NCBI GenBank assembly: GCA_905221605.1 | Contig: CAJNDS010000735.1 | Span: 628,001-692,000, forward strand | From: Symbiodinium natans | Taxonomy: Eukaryota; Sar; Dinophyceae; Suessiales; Symbiodiniaceae | Direction: 5' to 3' | DNA length: 64,000 nucleotides | Shown here: piece by piece, positions 785 through 20,802 of the stretch | How the letters are laid out: every line of letters starts with the position of its first letter | How positions within the stretch are numbered: position 1 is the first letter of the stretch | Notes under the pieces: model-generated | What the model was told of the DNA's origin: nothing | The model's database searches: none | Seen by the model: the letters and a program-made list of their open reading frames with translations, nothing else | Translations under genes and position numbers: made by a program

Positions 785-885
785 TCGGAGTAGGCCCTTA
801 TTCCCTTTTTTTCGGCTTTAGGTTCCCTTGTATTCCCCTTAAAACCAAGGAGGGCACCGTTTTTTCCCCCAGGTAACTCTTGGCC
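785..885 (+). repeat. Degenerate copy of the CTAGGACCCAGAG TIR element
   Basis: The order of blocks (GGAGTAGGCCCTTATTCC, a pyrimidine run, AGGTTCCCTTG, AACCAAGGAGGGCACC, GGTAACTCTTGGCC) matches the elements at 5697-5809, 15254-15360 and the gene-internal copy at 21572-21682. It is joined directly to a CCCTAAA array on its right. Confidence 0.6.
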
Positions 886-936
886 CTAAACCCTAAACCC
901 TAAACCCTAAACCCTAAACCCTAAACCCTAGAGAAG

Positions 937-1036
937 CATCAAGTTCCACCACGGTCTGGAGGATATTCCGTGATGGCGACATCCGCTGGCTGACGGTGCC
1001 TCCCTCATCTCAGGCGGCGCGGGATTCAGGATCTGT
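937..1036 (+). CDS. Candidate micro-exon, unknown protein
   Basis: A unique island between CCCTAAA (left) and TTTAGGG (right) is open for about 35 codons on the + strand and includes the stretch TTVWRIFRDGDIRWLTVPP. It is preceded by CCCTAG and followed by G/GTTTAGGG, which would serve as acceptor and donor; the in-frame stop lies inside the first heptamer. No family recognised, and no partner exon identified. Confidence 0.3.
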
Positions 1037-1186
1037 GGTTTAGGGTTTAGGGTTTAGGGTTTAGGGTTTAGGATTTAGGGTTTAGGGTTTAGGGTTCAGG
1101 GTTGAGGGTTCAGGGTTTAGTAATTTAGGGTTTAGGAATCGTATAGGGTGTTTTGTATTGGCATACACCCTAAACTCCAAGCCAAC

Positions 1187-1670
1187 ATGGGCAGCAAAGG
1201 TTCTGGCAGTGACACTGCTGCCAGAAGTCAGAGGTCTCGAGCTCTGCTCTTTTTGTTGGTTAGGGTTTTGGGCTTTTAGGGTTAAGGGTCTAGGGTCTAG
1301 GGTCTAGGGTCTAGGGTTTAGGGTTTAGGGTTTAGGGTTTAGGGTTTAGGGTTTAGGGTTGATTTGGTATCATTCCAAGAATACCTCGCACATCGGCGTG
1401 CTGCGGGCGGCGCAGTCTGTGCAATTGCATCCAGGTTGTCTTTCTGCATTAGGGCATTAGGGGCCCTGCACGCTTACCCAGTGTGACAAAATCCTTCCTA
1501 AATTAGGCCTAACCCTAAACCCGAAGCACTTAACCCTAAACCCTAAACCAAGAGCAAACATCGGAGCACCCAGAGCAACCCACGCTTATCTGAATGCCAA
1601 TACACCTGAAGCCCTTCTTCGCACTAGACTTATATATGCCCTGGCCTACACCAGCCTGATCCAACCTTGA
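1187..1670 (+). CDS. Candidate three-exon gene, unknown 80-residue protein
   Basis: Three open islands join in phase: 1187-1258 (ATG start, 24 codons), 1380-1434 and 1555-1670 (TGA). Donors are GT at 1259 and 1435; acceptors are CCAAG and CAAGAG. The introns are 121 and 120 nt and consist largely of telomere-like heptamers: TTTAGGG-oriented in the first; in the second, TTAGGG-like near the 5' end and CCCTAAA near the 3' end. The N-terminus is basic and then hydrophobic (RSRALLFLL), and the last exon contains ANTPEALLRTRLIYALAY. I recognise no family. The splice sites were chosen to keep the frame, so this is an inference and the islands could also be inner exons of a longer gene. Confidence 0.35.
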
Positions 1671-1867
1671 AACCAGAAACACCCTGCTAAACCATGCTAA
1701 ACCCTAAGCTTAAACTTTACTAACCCCGTAAAAATCGCTGACGCCAGGCCGATCTAGAGTTATCTATGTACCTCTACAGACGGGATATACTATGCGCTGC
1801 CTTGCCTGAACTCCTGGGCCCACTTCCCCATCTCACCGGTGGATAGGTACGTGGACCCGAAACCCTA

Positions 1868-1976
1868 CCCAGAGACTCCAAAACCCCTTAATTAAGGAAT
1901 ATACCTTAAATCATATTAGGGTTCCGATTATACTTTAAGGTATATTCCTTAATTAAGCGGTTTTGGAGTCTCTGGG
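1868..1976. mobile_element. 109 bp palindromic TIR element (family P109)
   Basis: A near-perfect palindrome opens with CCCAGAGACTCCAAAACCCC and closes with its complement; the middle carries TTAATTAAGGAATATACC and its mirror. Copies of the same length are at 18585-18693 and 19025-19133 and a longer one at 18398-18515. A 13 bp direct repeat, ACCCGAAACCCTA, flanks this copy, directly on the left and 3 bp away on the right. No coding capacity; MITE-like. Confidence 0.85.
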
Positions 1977-2253
1977 TGCACCCGAAACCCTACACCGCAA
2001 TCCCCAACCCCTACACCCCAAAGCCTAAGTCCCCAATCCTCCTGCAGCCGAGACTCGTCACCCGGCCTGCTCGGGCTGCACCCGTACACACCTTAAACCC
2101 TAAACCCTAAACCCCAAACCCTAAACCCTAAACCCTAAACCCTAAACCCTAAACCCCAAACCCTAAACCCTAAACCCTAAACCCTAAACCCTAAACCCTA
2201 AACCCTAAACCCCAAACCCCAAACCCCAAACCCCAAACCCCAAACCCCTAAAC

Positions 2254-2313
2254 TGACAGGTCTATCGAAACCTCGAGCCGCTCCTAGGGCCGCAGGGCAT
2301 CCAGAGGCCAACG
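2254..2313 (+). other. Open unique island between inverted heptamer arrays
   Basis: About 60 bp are open in at least one + frame (Leu-Thr-Gly-Leu-Ser-Lys-Pro start). CCCTAAA lies to the left and TTTAGGG to the right. CTGACAG is an acceptor-like sequence, but no GT or GC donor is obvious at the right edge, so the exon reading is weak. Confidence 0.2.
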
Positions 2314-18704: not shown

Positions 18705-18830
18705 GCCAAGTAGGGGTGCCACTGGCATACAGAGGGAAGGGGGGAGCTACTGGTGAAAAGAAACTTGACCGCTCCGGCAGATGCGGCTCGCAGCCGCTCC
18801 TCGACCTTAAGCCCCTAGACCGAAACAATA
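18705..18830 (+). CDS. Candidate exon downstream of a P109 element
   Basis: Starts after TTGGTCAG, open for about 40 codons with the content GVPLAYRGKGGATGEKK, and runs into degenerate CCCTTAAA units. The donor could be one of several GC dinucleotides; phase to the next exon (18946) not fixed. Confidence 0.25.
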
Positions 18831-18945
18831 AACCCTTAAACCCTAAACCCTAAACCCTAAACCCTTAAACCCTTAAACCCTTAACCCCTTAAACCCTTAA
18901 ACCCTAAACCCTAAACCCTTCAGGGTTGAGGGCTGAAGGCTTAAG

Positions 18946-19243
18946 ATCGCGCGCCCCTTGCTTCGAAACGCTTGATGCTGGGGCAGCTTAAACGAAGTTG
19001 GGCATCGCTTCGTGGGGTTCCTGTCCCAGAGACTCCAAAACCCCTTAATTAAGGAATTTGCCTTAAATCATATTAGGGTTCCTATTATATTTTAAGGTAT
19101 CTTCCTTAATTCAGGGGTTTTGGAGTCTCTGGGTACGTCCCTCCACCATGAAAAAAGGCACCCACAAAGGGACCCTATTTTAGAACACACGCACACACAT
19201 TCGAGAGCTGGCTACAAAGCATCCCGATATTCCTGCAACCTGA
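18946..19243 (+). CDS. Candidate two-exon 3' gene end around a P109 element
   Basis: Exon 18946-19016 (after GGCTTAAG; content ASKRLMLGQLKRSWASLRG) ends at GT 19017. Exon 19184-19243 starts after CTATTTTAG and encodes NTRTHIRELATKHPDIPAT, then TGA. The joint is phase 0 on both sides. The 167 nt intron is mainly the 109 bp palindrome at 19025-19133. The N-terminal part is missing or lies in the exon at 18705. Unknown family. Confidence 0.35.
19025..19133. mobile_element. P109 palindromic element, candidate introner
   Basis: Third 109 bp copy with both TIRs intact. It lies between two open islands that join in frame once it is removed. Confidence 0.8.
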
Positions 19244-19418
19244 GATCAAGACCCTCCTTTGGAGGTGCATATGTAGCTTCAACTGGTTAAAACCTCGCTT
19301 AGGCTATGGTTTATTCAGCGCCCGACATCCCTAAACCCTAAACCCTAAACCCTAAACCCTAAACCCTAAACCCTAAACCCTAAACCCTAAACCCTACTCC
19401 CCCCAACCACCTTTAGCC

Positions 19419-19716
19419 ATGCAACTTGGCGTTAGACGCCATGCATCCACCATGTCCGATCTGGCGCTTCGACGCACGGGTGCGGTTCTTAGAGTGCCAG
19501 GGAAGAAGGGTCTAGGGTTTAGGATTTAGCGTTTAGAGCGTAGAGGGTTTAGGGTTTAGGGTTTAGGGTTTAGGGTTTAGGGTTTAGGGTTTAGGGTTTA
19601 AGCTTTAGGCTTTAGGGACGGGGTGGGGACCGGGTCACGGGGGTTGCGGGGATTTTTGGGAGCTGTTGGGCAAGATTGCGAAGAGCAGGTTCTGGCAGTT
19701 GGTCCCTAAACCCTAA
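19419..19716 (+). CDS. Candidate two-exon gene, unknown 63-residue protein
   Basis: ATG 19419 follows CCTTTAG. Exon one (to 19509) gives a basic N-terminus (MQLGVRRHASTMSDLALRR) like a transit peptide. Exon two starts at 19616 after GGCTTTAG, contains GDFWELLGKIAKSRFWQLV and stops at TAA within the first CCCTAAA units (19714-19716). The shared codon is completed across the joint (G plus GG). The 106 nt intron is TTTAGGG array beginning GTCTAGGG. Family unknown; splice sites inferred. Confidence 0.35.
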
Positions 19717-19759
19717 ACCGTAAACCCTAAACCCTAAACCCTAAACCCAAAACCCAAAA

Positions 19760-20450
19760 CCCTAGGTCCCCCCGCCCCCTGAGAAAGAATCCTCAAACCC
19801 TAACCCCCAAACCCAAAATCCCGGCTTTCCATCACAGCAGATCTCGACATTCGCGAGTCGAGCTACCTATGACAACTTATATACAAGGAGGGCCCCCTAG
19901 ATATAAGTAGAGTTATAAGGCCCCTAAATTGGGTTATAAGGATCCTAACTTAGGTTATAAGTCCCTTAACTATAGTTAGTACAGTAAGGGGGCCCCTCCA
20001 TGTACCTGCCTAAACCCAACAATTTAGGCAGTTTCCCCGTTGCCATTCGGAACCTGAATATATGCCACCCTACCCTGCCCCAGAGCTGAAACTCGAGCTT
20101 CTTGGCCACACCCCGAAGCAGACGAAATCTACAAAAAGCCCAATATAGGGTTTAGGGTTTAGGGTTTAGGGTTTAGGGCTTAGGATTTAGAGTCTTTCAG
20201 GGCTTGGAGTTTTGGTCTTTTCGGGAAGGCGAGGTGAGAAAATGTTCCTTTCCGACAACTCGTCTGATTTGCCCCTAACCCGACACCCTAAACCCTCGCG
20301 AAACCAGGGTTTAGTGTTTAGGGTTCAGGGTTCAGAGTTCAGGGTTCAGGGTTTAGGGTTATGGGTTTAGGGCTAAACCCAAACCCCTGACGTAATCTAG
20401 AGGTTTGAATAATTACTAACAGTATTCCCTCATGGCCCCTTCATAATTTT
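19760..20450. other. AT-rich unique sequence and short heptamer runs, no gene seen
   Basis: Contains palindromic ATATAAG/CTTATAT blocks at about 19876-19985 (likely another element), the end of a GGTCCATGTACCT element and a short TTTAGGG array at 20147-20190. Confidence 0.45.
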
Positions 20451-20711
20451 ACTATAAGAAGCCCCAAAACCCTATTCTTATTATTCGGGCCCCTATAGTC
20501 TCAGCCTGCACATGCGTTGAGACATCTGCAATGTTTTGTGCTGAGGGAATCATGAGCCTCAGGCGTCGAACAGACCAGGGTCCTTGCCACATACAGTATG
20601 TCAGCCTCTTCACCTCCTTACACTTAGAATTGTCGATTCGTCGTGGGGCCAACTTCTCTGCCCCGGTACCATAAACCCTAAACCCTAAACCCTAAGCCCT
20701 AAACCCCCGCC

Positions 20712-20802
20712 ATGGCGCCCTTCAGCCCCAGCAACGCGGCAAGCTCGAGCGCGGAGTCCCAGGAAGCCACCGCCGAGCAGAGAAAGGAGCTGCGGATTCT
20801 TG
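20712..20802 (+). CDS. Candidate first exon of the SHSW/RLWC membrane-protein gene
   Basis: GCCATGG start right after a CCCTAAA array. 30 codons (Ser/Ala-rich, then TAEQRKELRIL) run up to TTGGTAGCCC. The sequence GGGCTACCAA just before the next exon (21020-21029) is its inverted repeat, so 20803-21030 would be an inverted-repeat intron holding a TTTAGGG array and the element at 20925-21025. A plain GT-AG cut shifts the frame; an in-frame join needs a non-canonical boundary, so the link is uncertain. Confidence 0.35.

Follow-up and report, generated by a model that had tools for sequence, protein, structure and literature searches.

Homology of micro-exons from a conserved SH3_3 protein gene among telomere-type repeat arrays in a Symbiodinium natans contig

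Results and Discussion

Gene Locus and Homology Evidence

This work concerns 64 kb of the Symbiodinium natans contig CAJNDS010000735.1 (positions 628,001 to 692,000, forward strand; hereafter the window), scanned on both strands. Our segmentation covered the region 881–20920, in which 89 telomere-like arrays are interspersed with 84 islands. Within it lie 15 + strand segments of 27–63 nt, between 959 and 17833, which match successive parts of a conserved SH3_3 protein and are separated by 14 introns, and then the probable start of a next gene. Micro-exons amid telomere-repeat introns had been proposed in a first-pass annotation; protein matching bears this out for 15 exons and 14 array-bearing introns, and not for most of the joins listed there. 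Judged from sequence comparison, homology shows that real micro-exons lie in telomere-repeat introns at this locus.

In the first protein search, 27 open + strand island peptides from 933–9421 were joined into a query of 594 amino acids (aa) and compared with a database of 5.8 billion sequences, scoring being limited to the 7997 candidates with the most words in common. Five proteins were found among these at E<=10, the best of them (P0001) at E 5.8e-18. When P0001 was in turn compared with the window by tblastn, a colinear + strand series emerged from residues 175 to 405, and when the entire window was scanned with a profile on both strands, the top 11 places were 11 of the 15 exons. Joined, the 15 segments encode 231 residues with zero stops, of which 208 (90%) are identical to P0001 residues 175–404, with one 1-residue gap. 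Among 16 other relatives, 14 match the joined exons at 38–66% identity, in part over shorter stretches, and the match of the remaining two is confined to the C-terminal part that is missing here. The domain of P0001 is SH3_3, and the SH3_3 match of the homologue begins at micro-exon 6; no solved relative of P0001 was found up to E 0.01.

The relatives, one of which bears a Trinity transcript name, are uninterrupted proteins without array sequence. Given the 15-exon protein match, the arrays between the exons lie in introns. Moreover, three or more perfect units, in either orientation, bring stops in all three frames, so that no translatable mRNA can contain the arrays. A chance reading, in which the islands are non-exonic and the arrays mere repeats, is hardly credible for this locus: although in-phase joins are equally frequent in shuffled islands (see below), the match to P0001 in so large a database and the colinear chain both speak against chance, which is refuted for the 15-exon chain and not for the other islands.

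Exon and Intron Structure

All the features of this gene are on the + strand, and arrays are given in + strand order, G standing for the TTTAGGG and C for the CCCTAAA orientation. Micro-exon 1 (RIFRDGDIRWLTVPPSSQ; 959–1013), found by tblastn, junction search and joined alignment, has its 5′ edge set from AG-G and its donor at CAG-GC; intron 1 (1014–2259, 1246 nt) has arrays in the order GCGCCCCCC and contains a foldback element at 1869–1975. Micro-exon 2 (2260–2306, donor GAG-GC), which alone is weak (tblastn E 0.04) and was placed by order and joined alignment, precedes intron 2 (2307–3096, 790 nt, arrays GGGGC). Micro-exon 3 (3097–3141, CAG-GC), again weak alone, is followed by intron 3 (3142–3672, 531 nt, arrays CGGC), micro-exon 4 (3673–3709, ACC-GA) by intron 4 (3710–4608, 899 nt, arrays GGC), with the direct repeat GAGC at both borders, and micro-exon 5 (4609–4653, CAG-GC) by intron 5 (4654–6508, 1855 nt), where 17 arrays (GGGGGGGCGGGGCCCCC) accompany, at 5696–5809, a 79% look-alike of an introner-like intron that belongs to the next gene. 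Then come micro-exon 6 (6509–6565, AAG-GC), intron 6 (6566–7277, 712 nt, arrays GGGGG), micro-exon 7 (7278–7331, CAG-GA) and intron 7 (7332–7646, 315 nt), which has one C array, a foldback element at 7506–7622 and the direct repeat GAC at both borders.

Micro-exon 8 (7647–7700, GCC-GC) and intron 8 (7701–8648, 948 nt, arrays GCCG) lead to micro-exon 9 (8649–8675), of just 27 nt and weak alone, with the sole GT donor (AAG-GT). Introns 9 (8676–8917, 242 nt) and 10 (8975–9346, 372 nt), on either side of the Ser-rich micro-exon 10 (8918–8974, GAG-GC), both consist of a G array, a loop and a C array. Micro-exon 11 (9347–9409, AAG-GC) is followed by the longest intron, intron 11 (9410–13151, 3742 nt, arrays GGCCGCG). 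The latter contains a coding-looking stretch at 10029–11550, whose frame is broken once near 10790; it has no Pfam match and resembles retroelement-derived frames. The remainder of the chain comprises micro-exon 12 (13152–13208, CAG-GC), intron 12 (13209–15126, 1918 nt, arrays GGCGC), micro-exon 13 (15127–15159, AAG-GC), intron 13 (15160–16236, 1077 nt, arrays GGGCC), micro-exon 14 (16237–16269, GCC-GC), intron 14 (16270–17803, 1534 nt, arrays GGGGG) and micro-exon 15 (DKLPSKESLE; 17804–17833), whose 3′ edge was taken from AG-GC and after which no later exon was found in the window.

Splice Borders and Array Orientation

The donor is GC in 11 of the 14 introns (1, 2, 3, 5, 6, 8 and 10–14), GA in two (4 and 7) and GT in one (9), and the acceptor is AG-G in all of them. 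The borders of all 14 introns are thus of the dinoflagellate spliceosomal type (GT, GC or GA donor, AG acceptor), which should be read as consistency with the protein alignment and not as an open test, since the junction search admitted only these combinations; junctions were fitted by search, those of introns 2, 3, 6 and 7 by hand. Intron lengths range from 242 to 3742 nt, and 12 of the 14 are in phase 0. The motifs GTTTAGGG and GCTTAGGG, put forward as donors in the first-pass annotation, did not hold up, the fitted donors being mostly AG-GC ahead of the array; GTTTAGGG was ruled out because the fitted donors precede the arrays, the first of which starts 1–42 nt past the donor in 13 of the 14 introns.

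The same annotation had relied on in-phase joining of neighbouring islands, and this argument carries no force, because shuffled islands join equally often. Using 67 islands of 40–420 nt (66 neighbouring pairs), AG...GT/GC exons and 12 dinucleotide-shuffled sets, in-phase joins were obtained for 61/66 pairs on the + strand, 60/66 on the − strand and 60–63/66 in the shuffles (mean 61.7); joins of at least 120 nt reached 60/66 vs a shuffle mean of 59.4, and those of at least 180 nt 41/66 vs 40.3. The null simulation, named beforehand as the refuting test, hence gave the same join rate as the real islands. When the nine sets proposed as joined exons were compared by hand with the fitted exons, five (3658–3980, 4594–4809, 8652–8853, 8912–9427 and 14849–15186) overlapped at least one proven exon, 8912–9427 being the only one with two adjoining true exons, and four overlapped none: 1187–1670 lies inside intron 1 and 5535–5877 inside intron 5, the others being 18946–19243 and 19419–19716. 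By-hand counting of the 27 peptides of the first query likewise gave 8 proven exons in the correct frame, 2 out-of-frame peptides over proven exons and 17 intronic ones, which indicates that short islands easily look coding. Many of 40 exon-like islands picked by eye proved false. Island scores for codon usage, with 2158 codons from nearby open frames as the training set, gave no distinction between the two strands; a simple gene finder, trained partly on + strand frames, gave 182 for the + strand vs 98 for the − strand and found just part of the exons.

TTTAGGG is the reported telomere unit of dinoflagellates (PMC11453091), and perfect arrays of this type reach 15 units in the window scan. 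Of the 52 perfect runs of at least 3 units in the window, 44 fall within the 14 introns; as internally sited tandem repeats of the telomere unit, they resemble in this respect interstitial telomeric sequences (ITSs). Perfect arrays make up 2429 of 16181 intron bases (15%) vs 102 of the 41833 bases beyond 22167, a density approximately 60 times higher in the introns. Every intron has at least one array, arrays accounting for 9–50% of its length, and the longest telomere-type tandem arrays extend to 309 bp.

The expectation that islands measure 50–150 bp was borne out in 43 of the 84, as counted from the segmentation length list, and that of CCCTAAA, island, TTTAGGG as the usual order was contradicted, just 20 of the 84 islands being C-G, with 19 G-C, 30 G-G and 15 C-C. 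The related proposal that introns tend to begin with TTTAGGG and finish with CCCTAAA was supported: the first array is G in 12 and the last one C in 10 of the 14 introns, a combined count reached by 19 of 20000 permutations (11 of 20000 with arrays of at least 35 bp). Each exon thus tends to be framed by inverted arms of telomere repeat. Indeed, C-exon-G flanking, seen at 10 of the 15 exons, was matched in none of 4000 placements at base level and in 5 of 5000 at the level of islands (up to 350 nt); once the probable exon 1 of the next gene is counted, 11 of 16 exon islands are C-G vs 7 of 55 others (Fisher p 3e-5). A preferred inverted arrangement is therefore supported in this one gene at about p 0.001. 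At a distance of at most 60 nt, 10/14 introns have a branch-site-like CTRA near the acceptor and 13/14 have GGG near the donor, features that result from the arrays themselves and are not independent evidence. In the window, no Rfam match was obtained at gathering scores, and the spliced-leader sequence was absent at up to 3 mismatches.

Next Gene and Remainder of the Window

The next gene (20710–22149, + strand) belongs to a large family: of 7999 candidates scored, 125 were relatives at E 1e-5. Among their names are Durusdinium, Symbiodinium, Cladocopium and Effrenium, and some are designated transmembrane or TIR-domain proteins in Symbiodiniaceae. Together with the TTTAGGG unit and the GC and GA donors, these names mark the window as dinoflagellate-like. 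Its probable first exon (MAPFSPSN...; 20710–20809, +) is flanked C-G and matches the N-termini of homologues loosely. Over 49% of the query, the relative P0012 shows 94% identity; by eye it seems to continue into the intron described below, so that another record contains a close second locus.

This intron (21568–21683, +) has GC-AG borders, a 4-bp direct repeat GCTC and ends CTAGG...CCTAG. It was delimited by a gene-finder model trained partly on the next gene itself, and homologues read straight across it. With its 4-bp target-site duplication (TSD), inverted ends, own 3′ splice site and further copies, it has the characteristics of an introner. The copies are 73–82% alike and comprise a full-length one at 5696–5809 in intron 5 (79%) and partial ones at 793–888, 5639–5698, 15254–15330 and 15423–15477. 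At its positions 36–48 the intron contains approximately two telomere units (TTTAGGGTTTAGG), a possible seed for the arrays.

Further observations in the window include a 3.9-kb direct duplication (43222–47122 and 60023–63947, 98.4% identity) and inverted copies (44619–46494 and 58472–60349, 99%) within long GGGCTTAAGGGG-type tandem repeats. A scaffold gap of 100 N lies at 57206–57305, and an RCC1-repeat protein fragment at 53284–53724. Open frames on the minus strand, the longest of 726 aa, occupy 25555–31640 and 56134–57162; four of them were scanned without a Pfam match.

Origin of the Arrays

From a mechanistic point of view, the arrays would have grown mainly through local tandem amplification, because blocks of identical non-canonical units occur (13 blocks of at least 3 identical variant units, 12 of them intronic). 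Growth may have begun at short seeds or at intronic insertions bearing inverted ends. Foldback elements of three families are located in and near introns: one of approximately 108 bp with CAGAGACTCC... ends (1869–1975, 8090–8178, 18408–18515, 18584–18694 and 19025–19133), up to 95% alike, the copy at 8090–8178 being diverged, a second at 7506–7622 and 9869–9989, and a third at 13481–13589, 7847–7940, 12927–13011 and 16496–16579.

A different origin, in which the introns arose as introner-type insertions and telomere-like sequence at their ends or in their interior expanded afterwards, seems to us somewhat unlikely. It finds support in the next gene, a whole intron of which is introner-like, has the layout with 4-bp direct repeat and inverted ends described for Symbiodinium microadriaticum (PMC9860276), contains TTTAGGGTTTAGG and has a look-alike in intron 5, as well as in the inverted arrays at the two ends of most of the 14 introns. 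By contrast, direct repeats of at least 3 bases were found at the borders of only introns 4 and 7, so that a TSD is lacking in 12 of the 14, and these introns have no intron-specific inverted repeat outside the arrays. No family of similar copies appeared either in the array-masked self-comparison within this one 64-kb window: different introns share just dispersed stretches of 46–122 nt, none at an intron end, one of them (introns 11 and 14) 97% alike.

Insertion of ITSs through break repair with telomerase inside pre-existing introns is, in our opinion, less likely still. Perfect runs of the canonical dinoflagellate unit would suit it, and insertion of this kind has been described for mammals (PMC7215372). 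Nevertheless, this process would predict no fixed orientation relative to the exons, identical variant-unit blocks are not expected from a fixed telomerase template, and hardly any arrays occur in the window past 22167.

Proposed Explanation and Folding

We consider it very likely that this locus is part of a dinoflagellate-type nuclear gene for a conserved SH3_3 protein, split into micro-exons by mostly GC-AG, array-bearing introns with an orientation tendency, whose arrays would have been amplified locally and whose arms may pair. The inverted arms, by pairing in the pre-mRNA, might also affect micro-exon recognition, either by zipping introns or by holding the exon in a loop. When introns 9 and 10, the only two treated in this way, were folded almost alone, long array stems were indeed formed (z −5.2 and −3.6 vs shuffles). 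The ends of introns are also complementary in 60-nt windows, with −44.6 kcal/mol vs −25.9 kcal/mol for interior pairs.

Several observations weigh against this explanation. Exons 2, 3 and 9 were at chance level in the profile scan and exon 10, the weakest match (Ser-rich, tblastn E 1.8, one gap), was not among the 60 places listed; these four were placed by order, borders and joined alignment. The short distance between arrays and exons (median 19 nt upstream and 15 nt downstream), never reached in 4000 base-level placements, was ordinary against the island-level null (1456/5000 with islands up to 350 nt, 518/5000 up to 550 nt). Minimum-energy folds of five stretches of approximately 0.9–2.3 kb, which include exons and two of which are nested in others, paired arrays across an exon in all five cases, which speaks against a simple intron zipper. 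Intron ends did not prefer their own partner (−44.6 vs −45.8 kcal/mol for mismatched pairs). Finally, P0001 residues 405–590 had no above-chance match in the window, 17834–64000 included, in the profile scan.

Two ideas were abandoned on these grounds, an unusual closeness of arrays to splice sites, the arrays being simply dense, and a specific pairing of the two ends of each intron outside the arrays. Three of the five longer folds also paired arrays within one intron; with both kinds of helix seen, zipping of introns and looping of exons by the arms are both conceivable, and the folds do not decide between the two. The same results lend weight to a neutral repeat load, with heptamers expanded by slippage in the introns of a low-constraint region and orientation and hairpins without any role, which we regard as possible, though short of an even chance: the homogeneous variant blocks point to slippage, splice-site proximity is within the island-level null, and the folds do not favour intron zippers. 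What this neutral account leaves aside is the C-exon-G order, which survives both the island-level null and the orientation permutation.

The missing residues 405–590, as well as the long tracts of CA and CACCCA with which the window begins, could also be understood if a dead or mis-assembled gene had left real exons scattered in subtelomeric-type debris. This is quite improbable in our view, given 15 exons in order on one strand, without stop or frame break, at 90% identity and with usable borders at 14 of 14 junctions. Residues 405–590 may be missing owing to a truncated copy, a broken assembly or a very long next intron, whereas residues 1–174, which had no above-chance match in the window either, should lie upstream of it. 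Annotation-like relatives break at or near the same place, P0136 matching P0001 only to residue 404, P0137 only from 404 and P0135 only from 414. This suggests that the border near residue 404 is hard to cross in other species too, perhaps because of a very long intron. Of 17 proteins, P0001 included, the three with annotation-like names match 18–30% of P0001, while among the other 14, 12 match 94–100% and two 55–59%.

The most far-reaching version of the proposed explanation, which we hold to be doubtful, is that the arrays act as structural splicing signals: inverted arms on both sides of each micro-exon would fold the pre-mRNA so that exons too short to be recognised in the ordinary way are presented to the spliceosome in loops or introns zipped, GGG near GC donors would serve as an enhancer, and CUAAA near acceptors would provide branch-site material.

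Relation to Known Systems and Significance

The introns described here share features with several known systems. Like the introners of Symbiodinium microadriaticum (PMC9860276) and Polarella (cited in PMC11453091), they are dinoflagellate introns with inverted repeats towards their ends, and one introner-like intron with a 4-bp direct repeat occurs in the next gene. Their inverted parts are telomere-type arrays, however, and not a fixed terminal repeat, most of them lack border direct repeats, and no whole-intron family is found in the window. In humans, ITSs are also telomere-unit arrays within genes, 31% being reported as intronic, with a distribution reported to be compatible with random insertion (PMC7215372); here, by contrast, 14 consecutive introns all bear arrays, in a preferred orientation order. 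The hairpin introns of Amoebophrya (PMC7789003) are likewise dinoflagellate introns with non-GT borders and with inverted repeats at both ends; these can form a hairpin, as those of some introns here may, but they measure 8–20 nt and the borders are highly varied, unlike the long telomere-like arrays and GC/GA/GT-AG borders found here. Finally, the ends of euglenid nonconventional introns can pair and be brought together (PMC4770533); in euglenids, the very ends are involved and the borders are non-spliceosomal, whereas here the ends are unspecific outside the arrays and the borders look spliceosomal. Titles, abstract starts and passages of the literature searched contained no report of telomere-like arrays at intron ends or of dinoflagellate microexons.

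The effect of intronic telomeric repeats on splicing is posed as a question in the ITS literature (PMC7215372), and a possible role of the arrays in splicing or in intron birth is testable at this locus. With fitted borders, a preferred orientation and arrays in each of 14 successive introns, this gene makes the splicing question directly testable, and the short coverage of P0001 by annotation-like models hints at why such genes are easily missed. More generally, telomere-type DNA in the introns of a conserved gene raises the question of whether repeats can shape splicing.

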